60,520 nt of DNA from contig CADAEZ010000003.1 of the NCBI GenBank assembly GCA_902787145.1, positions 1 through 60,520 of the forward strand, given 5' to 3'. Below are positions 53,946-60,520 of the stretch, piece after piece. Position 1 is the first letter of the stretch. Each line of letters starts with the position of its first letter. A program made the translations under genes and the position numbers. The notes beneath the pieces are model-generated. The model saw only the letters and a program-made list of their open reading frames with translations, did no database searches and was not told the DNA's origin. Source of the stretch: an uncultured Ruminococcus sp. Lineage in GTDB: Bacteria; Bacillota; Clostridia; Oscillospirales; Acutalibacteraceae.

Positions 53946-55556
53946 ATGAAAAAAACACTATCGTTCCTACTCGCGGCCGCGATAATAATATCCTTATTCG
54001 CCTCCTGCGCCGGCGGATACAAAGACCCTACCGCGGATATCAAGGCGCGGCAGTCCGGTGACAAATACCGCAACTACTACGAGATTTTCGTAGGAGCCTT
54101 CGAGGACAGCGACAACAACTCCATAGGCGACATCCCCGGTATAATCTCTCGCCTCGACTATCTCAACGACGGAGACCCCAACACCGGCTCCGACCTCGGC
54201 GTCGACGGGATCTGGCTCACTCCGATAATGCCGTCGCCGTCCTATCACAAATATGACGTAGAAGATTACTTCGGCATAGATCCCGCCTTCGGCACAATCG
54301 AGGACTTCGACAAGCTCGTCGCCGAATGTCACAAGCGCGGAATCAAGCTGATTATAGATATGGTACTCAACCACTCCTCATACACCCATCCGCTCTTCGA
54401 GAGCGCCTGCGATTCTATTATAAACAAGGGAAAGCTCAACGCCGACGCCAAGTATTTCGAGATAAAAAAATACCCCGATAATCCCGGTGACGCTTATACC
54501 GAAATCGCCGACGGCTACTACTACGAGTCCAATTTCTCCGAGCATATGCCGGAGTGGAACCTCTCCGAGCAGTGTACGCGCGATTATTTTAAAAAGATAG
54601 CCGAATTCTGGCTCAAAAAGCACGATGTTGACGGCTTCCGTCTTGACGCCACAAAATACTACGCCAATGACCATACCGACGCCGTGGAATTCCTTAAATG
54701 GTACTACAGCGCCGCCAAGTCGATCAAGCCCGACGTATATATGGTCGGCGAAAACTGGACAGGCAACTCCGAAATCCAGGAAATGTACAAGACCGGTACC
54801 GACAGCTTTTTCGCGTTCGGATTCGCCGGTTCAACAGGCGGATTTGTCAATGCCGTCCGCAATCAGAACCAGCAGGGACTCATCAGCTCGGTCAAGCGCT
54901 TTGAGGAAAAAACCAAAAAGAATAACAAAGACGCGATAAACTGCTACTTCCTCTCGAACCACGACCAGGTGCGCAGCGCTAACTATAACAAAACCGCGGG
55001 TCTCAGCGGTACCAAAATGGCAGCCGCGCTCTATATGCTGATGCCCGGCAACTCCTACATCTATTACGGCGAGGAAATCGGAATGACCCAGCAGGCGACC
55101 GCCCTGGGTGACGAACCCAAGCGCGCGCCAATGGTATGGGACAGCAAAAACCTCCCCAATATCTCGGTCAACGGCAAGCAGGGCTCCGACGATACCCAGA
55201 TCCCCTACGGCGGAGTAAAACAGCAGCTCAAAAACGAGAATTCACTTCTAAATTTCTACAAAAGAATTATAAAGATAAAGAACCAGAATCCGGCGATATC
55301 CCGCGGAACAATAACCGAGGAGCTAAAGCTTGACGAACCGGGCGTATGCGGCTACATCGTGGAGTACAAGGGCAACAAACTCACAATAATCCACAACCTC
55401 GACAAGTCCGAAACCCAAACCGTCACAGGCGATTTCCCCTCAACGCTGAGAGCCGACCTGGTAGCTTCCAATAATAAAAACAAAAACGACCACCCAACCC
55501 TGTCAAAAGACACCCTGTCCCTTCCGCCGCAGTCGACGGTCGTATTGGGTGAGTGA
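53946..55556 (+). CDS. Lipoprotein GH13 alpha-amylase/maltodextrinase
   Basis: A membrane-tethered starch-fragment hydrolase beside its transporter. The 536 residues have a lipobox (SLFASC) after the signal sequence, then a GH13 barrel. Its first signature is RNYYEIFVGAFEDSDNNSIG. Catalytic motifs are DMVLNHSS, VDGFRLDATKY with nucleophile Asp234, GENW with Glu269, and SNHDQ with Asp340. There is no CBM. The C-terminal beta domain ends near SLPPQSTVVLGE. ATG 53946 has AGGTGA before it. Compared with the two tandem amylases it has the common NHD form and no starch-binding module. It is likely to work on oligosaccharides bound for MalE. Confidence 0.9.
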   Translation: MKKTLSFLLAAAIIISLFASCAGGYKDPTADIKARQSGDKYRNYYEIFVGAFEDSDNNSIGDIPGIISRLDYLNDGDPNTGSDLGVDGIWLTPIMPSPSYHKYDVEDYFGIDPAFGTIEDFDKLVAECHKRGIKLIIDMVLNHSSYTHPLFESACDSIINKGKLNADAKYFEIKKYPDNPGDAYTEIADGYYYESNFSEHMPEWNLSEQCTRDYFKKIAEFWLKKHDVDGFRLDATKYYANDHTDAVEFLKWYYSAAKSIKPDVYMVGENWTGNSEIQEMYKTGTDSFFAFGFAGSTGGFVNAVRNQNQQGLISSVKRFEEKTKKNNKDAINCYFLSNHDQVRSANYNKTAGLSGTKMAAALYMLMPGNSYIYYGEEIGMTQQATALGDEPKRAPMVWDSKNLPNISVNGKQGSDDTQIPYGGVKQQLKNENSLLNFYKRIIKIKNQNPAISRGTITEELKLDEPGVCGYIVEYKGNKLTIIHNLDKSETQTVTGDFPSTLRADLVASNNKNKNDHPTLSKDTLSLPPQSTVVLGE

Positions 55557-55558
55557 GT

Positions 55559-55924
55559 ATGTCGTACAACCGAGAATTAATATACAGGGCAAAAGAACTA
55601 AGAAAGAATATGACAAAAGAAGAACGTCACCTATGGTTTGATTTCTTAAAACAATGTCCTGTTAAGTTTACGGCTCAAAAAGTAATAGATGAATATATCG
55701 TGGATTTCTACTCAGCGGATTTAGGCTTGGTGATAGAGCTCGACGGCGATCACCATAAAAGAGACGTACAAACCGAATCCGCTGATAAGCTAAGGGATAA
55801 GAGACTGAATGAGCTAGGGTATAAAGTGCTTCGCTTTAGCAATTACGAAATACACCAAAACTTTAGAGGCGTATGCGACACGATAACGGAAGAAATCTTT
55901 AGTACCCCTTTGTCAAGGGGTTAA
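55559..55924 (+). CDS. DUF559 endonuclease-like protein ending in a repeat
   Basis: A 121-residue protein of the DUF559/Vsr-like PD-(D/E)XK nuclease fold. It has RAKELRKNMTKEERHLWFDFLKQ, KFTAQKVIDEYIVDFYSADLGLVIELDGDHHK with the catalytic Asp/Glu/Asp, and DKRLNELGYKVLRFSNYEI. The last residues (STPLSRG) are encoded by the start of a GTACCCCTTTG repeat copy, so the repeat supplied the natural stop. It is next to the amylase stop (GTG at 55553 overlaps it; ATG at 55559 is preferred). DUF559 genes often sit inside such repeat clusters. Substrate is unknown. Confidence 0.82.
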   Translation: MSYNRELIYRAKELRKNMTKEERHLWFDFLKQCPVKFTAQKVIDEYIVDFYSADLGLVIELDGDHHKRDVQTESADKLRDKRLNELGYKVLRFSNYEIHQNFRGVCDTITEEIFSTPLSRG

Positions 55925-56303
55925 CATAGCGAGGTTTGATAACGCTGCAAACAAGTACCCCTTTGTTAAGGGGTCAAAATCGTTAGCCCAAAGGGCTCGA
56001 TTTTGGGGGATGACGCTTCCAACAGAGCGAGGCTTAATAGAGAACAAGTACCCCTTTGTCAAGGGAGACTCCTCCGCTGGAGGAGATGTCGCGAATGCGA
56101 CAGAGGTGGTTCCGTCTCCCGCTAGGGAAGGAAATTGTTACACGCTTGCGTGTCAATTTCCGGAGATGAGGTTTCCTATAGAGCGGGTTTTCCGTAGCAG
56201 CCTTGCTCTATTCGACCGCTACGCTGTTTTATCCCCCGAAATCAACGCTGCGCGTTGGTGCCGCAAGCGGCACCAAAATTTCGACCCCTTGACAAAGGGG
56301 TAC
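55902..56303. repeat. About 400-bp element with GTACCCCTTTGTCAAGGGG repeats and terminal inversion
   Basis: Three direct copies of GTACCCCTTTG(T)(C/T)AAGGG stand at 55902, 55955 and 56048, and one inverted copy at 56283-56303. Inside: the dispersed core ATGTCGCGAATGCGACAGAG (56064-56121, shared with 434-494), a hairpin GAAATTG...CAATTTC around ACACGC/GCGTGT (56131-56160), and GGTGCCGC/GCGGCACC (56257-56274). The inverted copy and copy 2 continue into matching sequence ending at TTTTGGGGGAT/ATCCCCCGAAA, so the ends form long imperfect inverted repeats. No gene is supported here. Confidence 0.65.
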
Positions 56304-56400
56304 TAAATCGTTAAACATTTATCAACGTGACAAATATTACAACTTGCCTAAATTTTTTAAAAATTCGCTAAAATTTGTGCATTTTGTATAGTCAAAACAC

Positions 56401-56430
56401 TTGAAAAATGTCCTACAAATATGTTAGAAT
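56401..56430 (+). promoter_or_regulatory. Promoter for the 1242-residue surface protein
   Basis: TTGAAA (56401-56406), an 18-base spacer and TAGAAT (56425-56430). The leader of about 255 bases to the start holds no gene that I can support. It contains a small hairpin GCGGA/TCCGC near 56451-56466 and tandem AATTCCGAATT units at 56557-56587. The leader is long for a plain gene and could be regulated. Confidence 0.5.
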
Positions 56431-56556
56431 AAATCATAATGTTATAGTCGGCGGAAAAATGTCCGCTGATTGCATTAAGATTGCACAGTATTTGTGTAAA
56501 TCGATCCAAGCTCCGCTACGTTGTCGGGCTATCCGGCAGCAGCATACATTATATAA

Positions 56557-56587
56557 TTCCGAATTTCGAATTCCGAATTCCGAATTG
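56557..56587. repeat. Tandem AATTCCGAATT repeats
   Basis: Three near-identical ATTCCGAATT units follow each other and are themselves nearly palindromic. They lie in the leader of the large secreted protein gene. Confidence 0.5.
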
Positions 56588-56691
56588 CTGAAGGTGTGGG
56601 GTCAGATGTTGTCAGTAAAAGAGCTCGGATTTTTATGAATCACTTTTTTAAAAAGGGAAAAAATTAATATTTAGAAAGGATGATTTATCCC

Positions 56692-59600
56692 ATGCAAATG
56701 ACTAAAAAAGTATTATCAGTAGTTCTTGCTGTAATGATGGTTGTTTCCATGATGTCTGTAATGGCAGTTACTGCTAACGCGGCTCCTGCGGATTTCTCAT
56801 CAGATACAAAGACTGTATTCGTTACAGATTCACAGAACTGGGATTCTGACGGTGCTCTGCAGGCTTATTACTGGAAAGTTAAAACCACAGGCTATGACGA
56901 ACACTGGAACGCTATTACTGAGACAGTAGCTGGCGATTGGGTTTCTATGACCTATCTGTATGACAATTCTCAGGGTCAGTCCGTATACGGCGTTGTTCTT
57001 CCTGATGACGCTAACTGGGTACTGTTCAACCGTGACAACACAAGACAGACAACTGACACAACGAACGTTTATGATGGTTCTTGGTGGTATATCGACGGCA
57101 ACAAGGCTTGTCAGCCTTGCTCTGGTAGCGCTTTTGATACTTGCGAGCAGACTGATTCGCTCAGCGATGATTTTGTTACCAACACAGGCGCGGACAGATA
57201 TTACGTTTTAGACGGTCGTTATTATTTTGTCGGCACTAACGGAAATATCTCTCAGTATAATAATACAGCCGAGCTTATGGTTGCTGAGGTAAACGGAAAT
57301 CAGTACTCAAATGTTAACGACGCTGTAAAGGCGGCAGGTGCTAACGGTACAGTTACGCTGATCAATGATATTAATAGCAATGTATTCATTGGTGAAGATG
57401 ATTATTCAGTAACTCTCGACCTCAACGGTCACACAATTACAAATACATCCGGCTCAGGTATTACACTTGGTTCGGCTTATCCCGGCGGCAACACCTTTAC
57501 TATTAAGGATACTTCCGCAGGACAGACCGGTGCTGTTACAATCAACAAGAAGTATGCCGGCGACGGATGCGTTTCCGATTCTTCGGGTTGGAATGTTGTA
57601 ATCGAAGGCGGTACATACACAAGTGACGCCAACGCTCTCTATATTTCTTCCGACCAGGGCTGGGAGATCAAGGGCGGTACATTCAACGGTGATGTTAAGG
57701 TTGTTTCCGCGCTTGACGTTACAGGCGGCGCAATCAACGGCGACATCAACGCTACAGGTCCTTCATGGAAAGTAGATCCTGCCGAAGTAACAATCTCCGG
57801 CGGTACTGTAGACGGTGACCTCAATTCCACAAACGGTTCGACATTCGAGGTATCCGGCGGTACATTCACAAGTGATGTAAGTGCTTACACAACAAGTTCA
57901 ACATATCAAAACGCTAACGGCGAAGTAGTAGCTAAGGCTGCTAACACAATCTATGATGACGGCGACTTTGCGACAGCTGCTGCAGAGGGCGGCGACTGGT
58001 ACATCGTAGCTGACGTTAACGGCGACGGCGTTACAGTAACAAGCAATCTTAAGATTTGGAACACTGATAAGGATCACACTATCGCAGGTGACATCACAGT
58101 TGCTAACGGCAAAAGCATTGCTAAGGGTGGCAAAAAGAAGGTTACCTTCACAGGTACAACTACTCTTAACGGCGGTAGCGTAAGCGACGCTAACTTCACA
58201 GAGATTATCGTTGCTAACGATCCTTATGTTCACGGCCAGATCAACAACGTTCCTTCCGGCGCTGTTATCAAGAACGGCGACGGCGATCGTATCGTATATG
58301 ACGCTATCTCTCTCGCGTATGCGGCAAAGAACGGCAGCGAAGTATATCTCGTTGACGATATCAGCGATATGTATATGACAATGAACGTTAACAGCGGAAA
58401 CTTCGTTCTCCACGGTGACGGTCATACAGTAAACTTTACATTTAAGGGCGACTATGCTTCGGCAATCGGTAAAAACGCAAGCATCGCTATCGACGATCTT
58501 ACAGTAACCGTAGCAAGCGGCAAAGCGCTCAAGTCCTTTATCAAGGCTAACGCAGCTGATGATAACACCGGCACAGTTACAATCAACGATGTAAGCGCAA
58601 CCGGATTCAGCACAGATGACGTATACACAGGCGGCGGTACTTGGACTTTCACAGACGCTACTGTAACAAGCGCAACTCAGCCTGAATGTCCTGAAGATTG
58701 GAAAGCTGTAGACAACAATGACGGCACTTGGTCGATCGTAGCTAAGGTTTACGTTGCTCAGGTTGGCGATAATAAGTACGAGACATTCGCCGAGGCTGTT
58801 GAGGCTGCTAACGGCTCTCTCATTAAAATCATTGCAAAGGATGCTACTCCTTACGTTATGAGCGTTGGACAGACAATCGTAACCGATAACTACACAAAGA
58901 TTACAATTGTTGCTCCCGAAGGCGCTTACGCAATCCACAGAGCTTATGATTCTACTGCAAAGACTTATACATTTACAGTTGTAGACGCTGTTGCAAGCTT
59001 TAGCGACGGAACTACAACAAAGTATTATGATACTCTGAATGCTGCTATAAGCGCAGTTCCGAATGCAACAAGCACAAACACAGCTACTTACACAGTTAAC
59101 CTTCTCAAAGACAGCACTGAGCTTGCTATCAATGTAGGTACCGCTTCAGCGAAAAAGAACGTAGTAATCGATCTCGGCGACAACACTCTTACATTAAACA
59201 GAAATTACAGCGCTCTCTTCATCGTAAGAAACGGTTCTAATGCAGTTGTTCAGAACGGTAAAGTTGTATTTGATACTGCATATGAAAACGCAAGCGGATT
59301 CTATATGTACGACAACGCCACCAGGCTTACTCTTGCTGATGACCTCGAAGTTGAGGCAACAGATGATACTGCCGGTGTATATGTAAAGAACGGTACATTC
59401 ACAAGCGCTGCTGATATCACATCCGAAGACAGCTTTGCTATCTCAACCAACGGCAGCGAAACCAAAAACGCTACAATCAACGTAACCGGCGGTGAGCTGA
59501 CATCTACCAACAGCGTAGCTGTATATCTCCCCGGCGACGCAACAACAACACTTACCGATGCTACTGTAACCGGCGCAACAGCTGTTTATGCAAAGAGCGG

Positions 59601-60420
59601 CGATCTTACAATCAACGGCGGTACATACACAGCTAACGGTAACGCGGCTGATTATACATACAACGGCAACGGCTGTAATCCTACAGGCGACGCTATCGTA
59701 GTTGACAGCTGCGGATATCCCGGCGGCGCTCCTGCTGTATCAATCACCGGCAACCCGAGTATTGACAGCGCAAACGGCGTACAGATCGGCGACTATACCT
59801 ACGGCGAGAATACAGATGCCGAGGTTACAGCTCATGACAACAGCATGTCACTTCCTGAGGGACTCAAGTGGGTAGAGACTGATACACAGGGCGTTTACAC
59901 AGTAGCTCCTATGGATCTCCAGGATCTCGCAGATGAGGGATTTGATGTACCGAAGACAGCAGGTCTCGGATTTGTTGACTCAACAACACTCTCAGGCATC
60001 AACGTTCCCGCCAAGGCTTCTATTCTCGGTGTACAGCTCAGACAGGCTCCCGAAAACGGTGAGTATGATGAAGGTAACGGCACCAACGCTCTCCGCTTCA
60101 TCACAGCTGTTGACAAGGAGTTCTTACAGAATCAGGATATCACAGACTACGGCTACCTCATCACAATCGGTAGCACAACCAGGTTCCAGACATGTAAGAA
60201 TACTACTAACAACACACTGACAAGCGGCGCTGACGATGACCTCGAGTACTTCACAGCTGCTATCTACAACATTCCCGACGGCAACACAACTAACATCAAG
60301 GTTCAGTTCGTATTCAAGACTGCAGGCAACGACCAGGCTGCTTTCGCAACCTACAAGAATGCCGGCCAGTATGAGCTCAACACAAACTACAAAGATGTTT
60401 ACGATCATTTTAATTCATAA
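56692..60420 (+). CDS. Large secreted surface protein with a starch-binding-like N-terminus and beta-helix repeats
   Basis: A 1242-residue exported protein. The signal peptide (KKVLSVVLAVMMVVSMMSVM, cut near ANA/AP) is followed by a module with the aromatic pattern of CBM26-like starch-binding domains: FVTDSQNWDSDGALQAYYW, SMTYLYDNSQGQSVY, WVLFNRDN and WWYIDG. Next comes a long region rich in Gly, Thr, Asn and Asp with recurrent GGTY/GGTF/GG(A/E) turns (EGGTYTSD, KGGTFNGD, TGGAINGD, SGGTVDGD, SGGTFTSD, NGGTYTAN, TGGELTST). These suggest a right-handed beta-helix or adhesin-like stack. About 180 C-terminal residues form a separate module (ALRFITAVDKEFLQN ... DYGYLITIG ... VQFVFKTAG). No LPXTG, SLH or dockerin is seen. 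ATG 56692 has AGAAAGGA about 10 bases upstream. Confidence 0.75.
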   Translation: MQMTKKVLSVVLAVMMVVSMMSVMAVTANAAPADFSSDTKTVFVTDSQNWDSDGALQAYYWKVKTTGYDEHWNAITETVAGDWVSMTYLYDNSQGQSVYGVVLPDDANWVLFNRDNTRQTTDTTNVYDGSWWYIDGNKACQPCSGSAFDTCEQTDSLSDDFVTNTGADRYYVLDGRYYFVGTNGNISQYNNTAELMVAEVNGNQYSNVNDAVKAAGANGTVTLINDINSNVFIGEDDYSVTLDLNGHTITNTSGSGITLGSAYPGGNTFTIKDTSAGQTGAVTINKKYAGDGCVSDSSGWNVVIEGGTYTSDANALYISSDQGWEIKGGTFNGDVKVVSALDVTGGAINGDINATGPSWKVDPAEVTISGGTVDGDLNSTNGSTFEVSGGTFTSDVSAYTTSSTYQNANGEVVAKAANTIYDDGDFATAAAEGGDWYIVADVNGDGVTVTSNLKIWNTDKDHTIAGDITVANGKSIAKGGKKKVTFTGTTTLNGGSVSDANFTEIIVANDPYVHGQINNVPSGAVIKNGDGDRIVYDAISLAYAAKNGSEVYLVDDISDMYMTMNVNSGNFVLHGDGHTVNFTFKGDYASAIGKNASIAIDDLTVTVASGKALKSFIKANAADDNTGTVTINDVSATGFSTDDVYTGGGTWTFTDATVTSATQPECPEDWKAVDNNDGTWSIVAKVYVAQVGDNKYETFAEAVEAANGSLIKIIAKDATPYVMSVGQTIVTDNYTKITIVAPEGAYAIHRAYDSTAKTYTFTVVDAVASFSDGTTTKYYDTLNAAISAVPNATSTNTATYTVNLLKDSTELAINVGTASAKKNVVIDLGDNTLTLNRNYSALFIVRNGSNAVVQNGKVVFDTAYENASGFYMYDNATRLTLADDLEVEATDDTAGVYVKNGTFTSAADITSEDSFAISTNGSETKNATINVTGGELTSTNSVAVYLPGDATTTLTDATVTGATAVYAKSGDLTINGGTYTANGNAADYTYNGNGCNPTGDAIVVDSCGYPGGAPAVSITGNPSIDSANGVQIGDYTYGENTDAEVTAHDNSMSLPEGLKWVETDTQGVYTVAPMDLQDLADEGFDVPKTAGLGFVDSTTLSGINVPAKASILGVQLRQAPENGEYDEGNGTNALRFITAVDKEFLQNQDITDYGYLITIGSTTRFQTCKNTTNNTLTSGADDDLEYFTAAIYNIPDGNTTNIKVQFVFKTAGNDQAAFATYKNAGQYELNTNYKDVYDHFNS

Positions 60421-60435
60421 GGGAGGAGATAAGTT

Positions 60436-60520
60436 ATGAAATTTGAATATAAGTCTCCTGCAATTACAGTAGAGGAACTGACAAAGACAGACGTACTCTG
60501 TGAGTCCGGCGCTCTGCCGC
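60436..60520 (+). CDS. Start of a small protein (truncated by the window end)
   Basis: ATG at 60436 with GGGAGGAG before it opens a frame that reads MKFEYKSPAITVEELTKTDV then LCESGALP and runs off the end. The pattern M-K-x-x-Y-x-x-P-x-(I/M)-x-V-x-x-(L/F)-x-x-x-D-V-(I/L)-x-x-S-G is one I associate with short unknown proteins of gut Firmicutes. It starts 15 bases after the large surface protein, so they probably share a transcript. Function cannot be judged from 28 residues. Confidence 0.6.
   Translation, partial: MKFEYKSPAITVEELTKTDVLCESGALP

Follow-up and report, generated by a model that had tools for sequence, protein, structure and literature searches.

A candidate LPP-like precursor peptide encoded directly behind a large exported protein in Ruminococcus

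Linear polyphosphorylated peptides (LPPs) are a class first described in 2026 whose biological role has been stated to be unknown (Popov et al. 2026; PMC13381572). According to the available part of that paper, on which all of our comparisons with LPPs rest, the system comprises an RRE (the recognition element for ribosomally synthesized and post-translationally modified peptides, RiPPs), a SipW-like peptidase, an HprK-like kinase, a nucleoside triphosphate (NTP) transferase and an MsbA-like exporter. The precursors have a conserved front and a variable end, with cleavage between FET and AQS and polyphosphorylation of the Ser at +3. Discrete RREs read the leader motif [YW]xxPx[LVIAFY], and the complete-genome mapping reported there concerns Bacilli (PMC13381572). 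Here we describe a two-gene unit at the end of a 60,520-nucleotide (nt) stretch of DNA, the window, which is contig C3 of an uncultured Ruminococcus sp. genome (GCA_902787145.1, contig CADAEZ010000003.1; genome code G000, 2.01 Mb in 102 contigs). The unit consists of a gene for a 1242-residue exported protein and a short gene that probably encodes an LPP-like RiPP precursor.

The small open reading frame (ORF) begins 15 nt past the stop codon of the large gene and is preceded by GGGAGG. The initial annotation had read from this DNA an exported protein of 1242 residues with a tightly linked small gene, and the signal peptide, the repeats and the short gap are indeed all present. Just 28 codons of the small ORF are contained in the window, because the window ends with the contig and the core is cut off. 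Complete relatives are found on contig C4 of the same genome (L018, 45 amino acids, aa) and at L174 (52 aa), and the C4 core, GVQPPQTPVHDNNNFDFGSFT, was used as a stand-in for that of the window. Eight peptides of the source genome share K2, Y5, P8, L15, D19, V20, L21 and S24 and diverge afterwards, and the family as a whole is conserved in its YxxPxI...DVLxxS front and variable at the end. In a wider profile (A8), Y5, D19 and S24 are invariant and P8 is nearly so. This profile yields 20 matches at E ≤ 0.001 in the source genome, counted as 17 places. With the source genome included, it also matches 39 of 59 genomes at E ≤ 0.01, a set made up of the source genome and its relatives, many of them incomplete, and 52 of 245 genomes of the order (37 of 127 genera). 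The proportions of synonymous and nonsynonymous differences (pS/pN) among relatives of the small ORF are 0.46/0.06, 0.31/0.05 and 0.08/0.05, and those between the window and L174 or L178 are 0.57/0.16 and 0.36/0.18, respectively. The window and C4 ORFs (no synonymous and two nonsynonymous differences) are too close for this measure, and the L109/L110 pair is identical in DNA. A chance orphan ORF was ruled out by this conservation, by the purifying selection and by the pairing described below.

The partner of the peptide is recognized by its C-terminal module (CTD), the last 150 residues of the window protein, which is present in many other exported proteins. A search with just a single peptide subfamily led to 23 loci. 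In 21 of them a CTD protein ends 13–18 nt upstream, and the remaining two are cut by contig ends; several loci come from the same metagenome-assembled genomes (MAGs), and the CTD was confirmed by profile for the distinct ones. These MAGs are named as uncultured Ruminococcus, Clostridiales, Clostridia or bacterium, and their stated sites are goat rumen or cattle abomasum, in addition to one red-deer isolate name. In the 59 genomes, 37 of 78 peptide matches lie no more than 200 nt behind one of 78 CTD matches, when 0.05 such pairs are expected under the random placement that all of our expected counts presume. Both profiles used for this count were built from the source genome, which contributes seven of the pairs; outside it, 30 of 68 peptide matches are paired. 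The co-occurrence of the large and small genes across relatives, which the initial annotation had proposed as a check, is thus borne out. Sixteen of the 17 places in the source genome were inspected (all but that on C21), and in 15 of them the peptide follows a long ORF that is either exported or truncated at its N terminus, in one case after a 79-nt gap behind a lipoprotein-like protein. Of 112 distinct peptides collected, among them at least one false entry and one truncated one, 92 have an upstream ORF of at least 80 aa within 110 nt, and 53 of these 92 ORFs have a CTD match at E < 0.01. By the same rule, a signal-peptide-like start is seen in 39 of 42 complete upstream ORFs, as compared with 15 of 48 ORFs of the window.

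The peptides are also associated with RRE genes. PqqD/RRE matches occur in 47 of the 59 genomes; for the counting of pairs, those inside long frames (from about 460 aa upward) were excluded. Among the peptide matches listed (at least 150) and 85 discrete RREs, at least 19 pairs fall within 3 kb, in 15 genomes, against 0.24 expected, and in at least 19 of 19 listed pairs the peptide lies upstream on the same strand. When the five RRE-adjacent training peptides are removed, at least 14 of 14 listed pairs are upstream and co-oriented (0.23 expected), and when the discrete RRE of G035:C55 is added, at least 19 listed pairs are still obtained (0.24 expected). A peptide profile built from the source genome only, without RRE loci, recovers four pairs against 0.45 expected in any orientation; all four are upstream and co-oriented, and three rest on weak matches (E 0.001–0.003). 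Other families contributed 23 genomes: of the nine with a discrete RRE, seven have the peptide, and of the 14 lacking one, none does (Fisher 1.5e-4). A regular-expression search for peptides near RREs, since superseded by the profile test, matched three times in 20 short RRE loci and five times in 17 long loci; elsewhere it matched twice in 247 kb of reversed sequence, and neither in the window nor in 54 kb of control loci.

The gene clusters around these RREs (Table 1) encode candidate enzymes for an LPP-like pathway. Loci G033:C1 and G007:C210 resemble G015:C60, G007:C210 being cut within its last gene; beside the machinery on C30 and C55 of the source genome, no peptide was recognized. Pfam, applied to chosen cluster members, identified PqqD, Dockerin_1, LRR_5, NTP_transf_5 and ABC families. 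The discrete RREs of C30 and C55 match PF05402 at 3e-17 and 4e-15, and the RRE profile matches the structures of the lasso RRE TbiB1 (1.2e-9) and of LppB (9x8z, 3.3e-5), as well as TfuB1 and PbaB1. The C30 peptidase matches TIGR02228 at 7e-10 and the SipW model at 3e-5 (archaeal-type signal peptidase; below curated cut-offs), and the peptidase Ser, His and Asp residues are present in 10 of 10 members examined by eye. A kinase Walker A motif, GTGK[ST]TH, is found in four of five kinases, the NTP_transf_5 protein of G015:C60 matches PF14907 at 1e-39, and the C30 exporter matches ABC_membrane at 5e-33 and MsbA_rel at 2e-73, the latter below its curated cut-off. Neither the kinase nor the peptidase gave a convincing match in the PDB.

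Given these associations, we consider it reasonably probable that the small gene encodes an LPP-like RiPP precursor, which is matured by machinery encoded elsewhere, made together with the exported multi-domain protein, and has a core that acts with this partner. The window would then hold a single unit of a dispersed family, in which a short precursor peptide follows directly upon a Sec-exported multi-domain protein. The peptide front, YxxPxI and then D-V-L-x-x-S, would be the RRE-binding leader, presented by a discrete RRE, whose gene lies elsewhere in the genome, to the HprK-like kinase, which probably acts on the Ser three residues past DVL, and to the SipW-like peptidase, which would cut near DVL. 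An MsbA-like exporter may subsequently release a modified core of 20–35 aa, and this core most likely works outside the cell with the co-encoded CTD protein, for example in anchoring or assembly.

Several results weigh against this reading. The eight peptides match no Pfam or NCBIfam model and the peptide profile has no match in the PDB, so that a known identity was abandoned, and there is no known product for the family. Of the LPP consensus YxxPxVLxHQxIxFETxxS, the peptides lack L6, H8, Q9, I11, F13 and T15 (counted from Y0), and their Y and S are spaced by 19 instead of 18. In the source genome, the C55 peptidase matches only TIGR02228, at 0.015 and below the curated cut-off, the C55 kinase has zero Pfam matches at E ≤ 0.1, and we noticed no NTP transferase among the machinery loci inspected. 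Against HprK-type models, the kinases give weak ScmC/HprK_rel matches (E 0.03–0.09). The pairing is incomplete in both directions. The C52 peptide is the exception in the source genome, with no exported ORF ahead of it, and it belongs to a group of peptides that lie behind unrelated genes (others are, for example, those of G008:C3, G033:C34, G015:C15, G033:C5 and G015:C43). Conversely, 41 of the 78 CTD matches have no peptide match within 200 nt, a divergent peptide was found downstream of just 7 of the 40 of these that were read (all save G051:C20), and none was seen downstream of giants ending like ..GGCLCSFNQV... Finally, CTD and peptide distances are correlated over 51 pairs (r 0.42, 0 of 5000 permutations), but only weakly among divergent pairs (r 0.13, 118 of 2000). 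The partners therefore appear to travel together, without a demonstrated pair-specific contact, and pair-specific co-evolution beyond shared descent was set aside as leaving at most a weak signal.

Some exported proteins carry core-like sequences of their own. When 761 protein tails from the retrieved DNA were ranked against 106 peptide cores, the nine best belonged to lipoproteins ending DNVEIDFxDL or to second exported proteins ending DGWxxxIYQP or similar, eight from RRE operons and one from G004:C67; since the retrieved DNA is not a random sample, this result is a ranking and not a genome-wide test. The second exported protein of C55 is a dockerin protein by Pfam, and the others differ. 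The tenth tail, GENSTMFKDVW, is that of a CTD protein, a type of ending that can be written GENxxxFKDVW. Further tails of the same kinds rank 36, 39, 50, 51, 122, 161, 291 and 361, and the core likeness therefore holds for some members only. On C2 of the source genome, two tandem peptides carry both cores, in the order of the two C55 operon tails. RRE operons at L220 (5846–7113) and L222 (9183–9731 and 8726–9157) have genes for a Ser-rich lipoprotein and for a second exported protein, and in some RRE-operon proteins the last ~10 residues match the cores of dispersed peptides. Four CTD proteins without a small gene (L135, L138, L141 and L133) have tails, such as GENSTMFKDVW, that resemble cores such as VENYTLLKEVWDTLT; these tails are possibly a core in cis. 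The likeness suggests that the core can be provided in cis or in trans. A tentative extension treats the modified core as a detachable C-terminal tail, present in cis in some exported proteins and supplied in trans to others as a RiPP that would be matured in the cytoplasm, exported separately, and then docked on or joined to the CTD. If true, this would constitute a peptide-modification route to cell-surface assembly.

A less likely reading than the main one is that the product of an LPP-like precursor is autonomous, as a signal or an antimicrobial, and that the gene owes its location to shared expression or cassette spread. This alternative would accommodate the orphan peptides away from exported proteins and the statement that LPP roles are unknown (PMC13381572, available part), and it draws on the near-identical 3′ cassettes of contigs C3 and C4. 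The last 177 residues of the C4 protein are 88% identical to those of the window protein behind a different upstream sequence, and its small gene is 93% identical to that of the window over 28 comparable residues; thus, the CTD and the small gene behave as one 3′ cassette. However, most peptides with a determinable neighbor follow an exported protein (21 of 21 loci; 15 of 16 places in the source genome), and a free signal would have no need for the core-like tails found on some exported proteins.

It appears improbable that the peptide remains unmodified and serves as a translation-coupled cytoplasmic pilot or chaperone of the exported protein and is carried by the PqqD-like protein. Such a function would suit the 13–18-nt gap to the exported gene, the lack of a visible signal peptide in the small ORF, and the designation of PqqD-like proteins as peptide chaperones. 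On the other hand, the conserved portion of the peptide is an RRE-type leader motif with a Ser, while its C-terminal half is variable, the clusters encode a peptidase, kinase, NTP transferase and exporter, and no peptide follows several of the CTD giants.

The initial annotation had instead proposed a starch-adhesion unit, in part on the basis of the N-terminal module of the large protein. Its CBM26-type relationship is supported: residues ~42–134 align with a CBM26 profile over 77 columns with an hhalign probability of 98.8%. The comparison set was chosen from matches of the same module, and all eight aligned members belong to PF16738; of 12 CBM26 modules extracted from weak matches, four (repeats or near copies) were kept out of the alignment. 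The comparison profile matches the Amy16, Amy10, Amy4, Amy13K and Sas6 structures. Tested directly against PF16738, the window module is below Pfam detection at E ≤ 1, and with a comparison set that stems from its own matches, it is called divergent CBM26-like. The module is found in 25 of the 59 genomes, with 75% identity in the likely orthologue of G007 and weak similarity elsewhere. Starch binding is plausible only where the window protein is concerned, and not as a trait of the paired system. A role as a non-catalytic protein for starch adhesion or scaffolding, with a small structural partner and a tie to the mal locus, is very improbable despite the N-terminal module and the sugar ABC-transporter-like and exported amylase-like genes seen by eye just upstream, as the pairing tracks the CTD rather than the CBM26-like module, peptide-bearing paralogues on other contigs have other N-terminal parts, and a RiPP-like precursor tied to RRE, SipW-like peptidase and HprK-like kinase clusters explains the small gene better than a structural subunit does.

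The entire 1242-aa sequence of the large protein has zero Pfam matches at E ≤ 1, and NCBIfam returns a weak match to a signal-peptide model and nothing else. An alternative start at 56680 would give 1246 aa, and likely orthologues are found at L174 (~1203 aa) and L178 (~842 aa). The GGTF/GGTY repeats were judged by eye in the translation, with no repeat software. For the CTD, the Pfam matches of 21 aligned members are weak and scattered (best E 0.004; each family in three members at most) and the PDB yields no convincing chain (best E 0.016), and a known identity was therefore dropped. On C1 of the source genome (L288, 2686–5710), an exported protein that is alpha-amylase-like by eye ends in a CTD, with a precursor peptide directly after it, and the CTD–peptide pairing may thus reach enzymes too.

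Table 1. Features of the two-gene unit in the window and gene content of representative RRE clusters.
Feature	Location	Strand	Basis or content
Promoter-like site, TTGAAA-18-TAGAAT	56401..56430	+	10/12 consensus matches; weak
Presumed untranslated leader, ~260 nt	56431..56691	+	contains short dispersed AATTCCGAATT repeat
Large exported protein, 1242 aa	56692..60420	+	ORF with TAA stop
Signal peptide, residues ~1–31	56692..56784	+	typical; read from translation
Divergent CBM26-like module, residues ~42–134	56815..57093	+	hhalign
Repetitive beta-helix-like region, GGTF/GGTY turns	57280..59860 (approximate limits)	+	translation by eye
C-terminal module (CTD), ALRFIT..DYGY	59965..60417	+	alignments A2 and A5
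Putative LPP-like RiPP precursor gene, 5′ part	60436..60520	+	leader YKSPAI..DVLCES
RRE cluster	G015:C42 (L222)	one direction	exported CTD protein, strong family peptide, lipoprotein, dockerin-like protein, HprK-like kinase, RRE, SipW-like peptidase
RRE cluster	G015:C60 (L225)		giant protein, peptide, leucine-rich repeat (LRR)-dockerin protein, RRE, peptidase, ABC exporter, NTP transferase
RRE cluster	G014:C121 and G025:C53		CTD giant, lipoprotein, dockerin-like protein, peptide, RRE, peptidase
RRE cluster	G000:C30		RRE, peptidase, exporter
RRE cluster	G000:C55		lipoprotein, dockerin, kinase, RRE, peptidase

As for the 5′ region, the promoter that the initial annotation had assigned to the large gene is represented by the promoter-like site of Table 1, but sites of this kind are no more frequent across the region than in shuffled sequences (9 found vs 7.6 ± 2.6), and strong promoter evidence was dropped. 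An Rfam scan of 55540–60520 gave no family at threshold, and a riboswitch in the leader was set aside. The AATTCCGAATT-type repeat of the leader lies at 56545–56590, with short matches on contigs C71, C26, C49 and C41. Between 55905 and 56310, several near-identical palindromic TACCCCTTTGTCAAGGGG stretches, resembling repetitive extragenic palindromic (REP) repeats, sit between the leader and a short ORF, which we take to be DUF559-like. Elsewhere in the source genome, tandem precursor pairs occur on C2 (66956 and 67090; L284 6457–6591 and the next small ORF) and on C76 (L290). Several of the orphan peptides (L103, L104, L105, L111, L099 and L108) end ENAYxDIxxFI...WF, alike between genomes.

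The union of large exported proteins with a precursor-like gene suggests an undescribed tie of peptide modification to the building of the cell surface; our survey of the literature (titles and abstract openings) found no report of such precursors behind exported proteins. Genomes with up to ~20 LPP-like precursors, mostly behind exported and partly starch-related proteins, would offer a first testable role for LPPs, the candidate being the building or anchoring of the cell surface in gut and rumen Ruminococcus.

To conclude, the locus can be set beside three described systems. In comparison with CBM26 (PF16738; Ruminococcus bromii Amy10, Amy16 and Sas6), the window module keeps the aromatic layout with its W and QT positions, but it is without the WPG motif and has extra residues preceding the W, and the window protein has no catalytic domain recognized by Pfam. 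Lasso precursors and discrete B1 RREs (TbiB1, TfuB1 and PbaB1) share the [YW]xxPx[LVIAFY] leader motif and RRE homology with the present system, whereas no lasso cyclase or B2 peptidase was noticed by eye, with no dedicated search, among the ORFs of the inspected clusters. The third comparison is with LPP systems (LppA/B/S/K/N/D), as far as these are set out in the available part of their description. The clusters found here have a discrete RRE, an S-H-D SipW-type peptidase, a putative HprK-like kinase with weak model matches, NTP_transf_5 and an MsbA-like exporter. The peptides keep a YxxPx[VI] leader, an acidic residue at Y+14, a Ser just past the leader and highly variable C-termini; of the LPP consensus, they retain Y, P, the hydrophobic +5, the acidic +14 and Ser at +19, and a cut after DVL would put the Ser at +3. 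The differences are that a genome here has many precursors, remote from the machinery and mostly behind exported proteins, that the kinase lies in one cluster and the exporter or NTP transferase in another (split between C30 and C55 in the source genome), and that the window precursor lies in neither, in place of the one cluster of LPPs. For these reasons, along with the lost consensus residues and the longer spacing, we call the system LPP-like and not a proven member. It also differs in coming from Ruminococcus MAGs and their relatives, the complete-genome mapping of LPPs having concerned Bacilli, and in the core-like tails of some exported proteins. The system adds to the described LPPs an exported C-terminal module, itself undescribed, and the puzzle of a core sequence seen both in cis and in trans.

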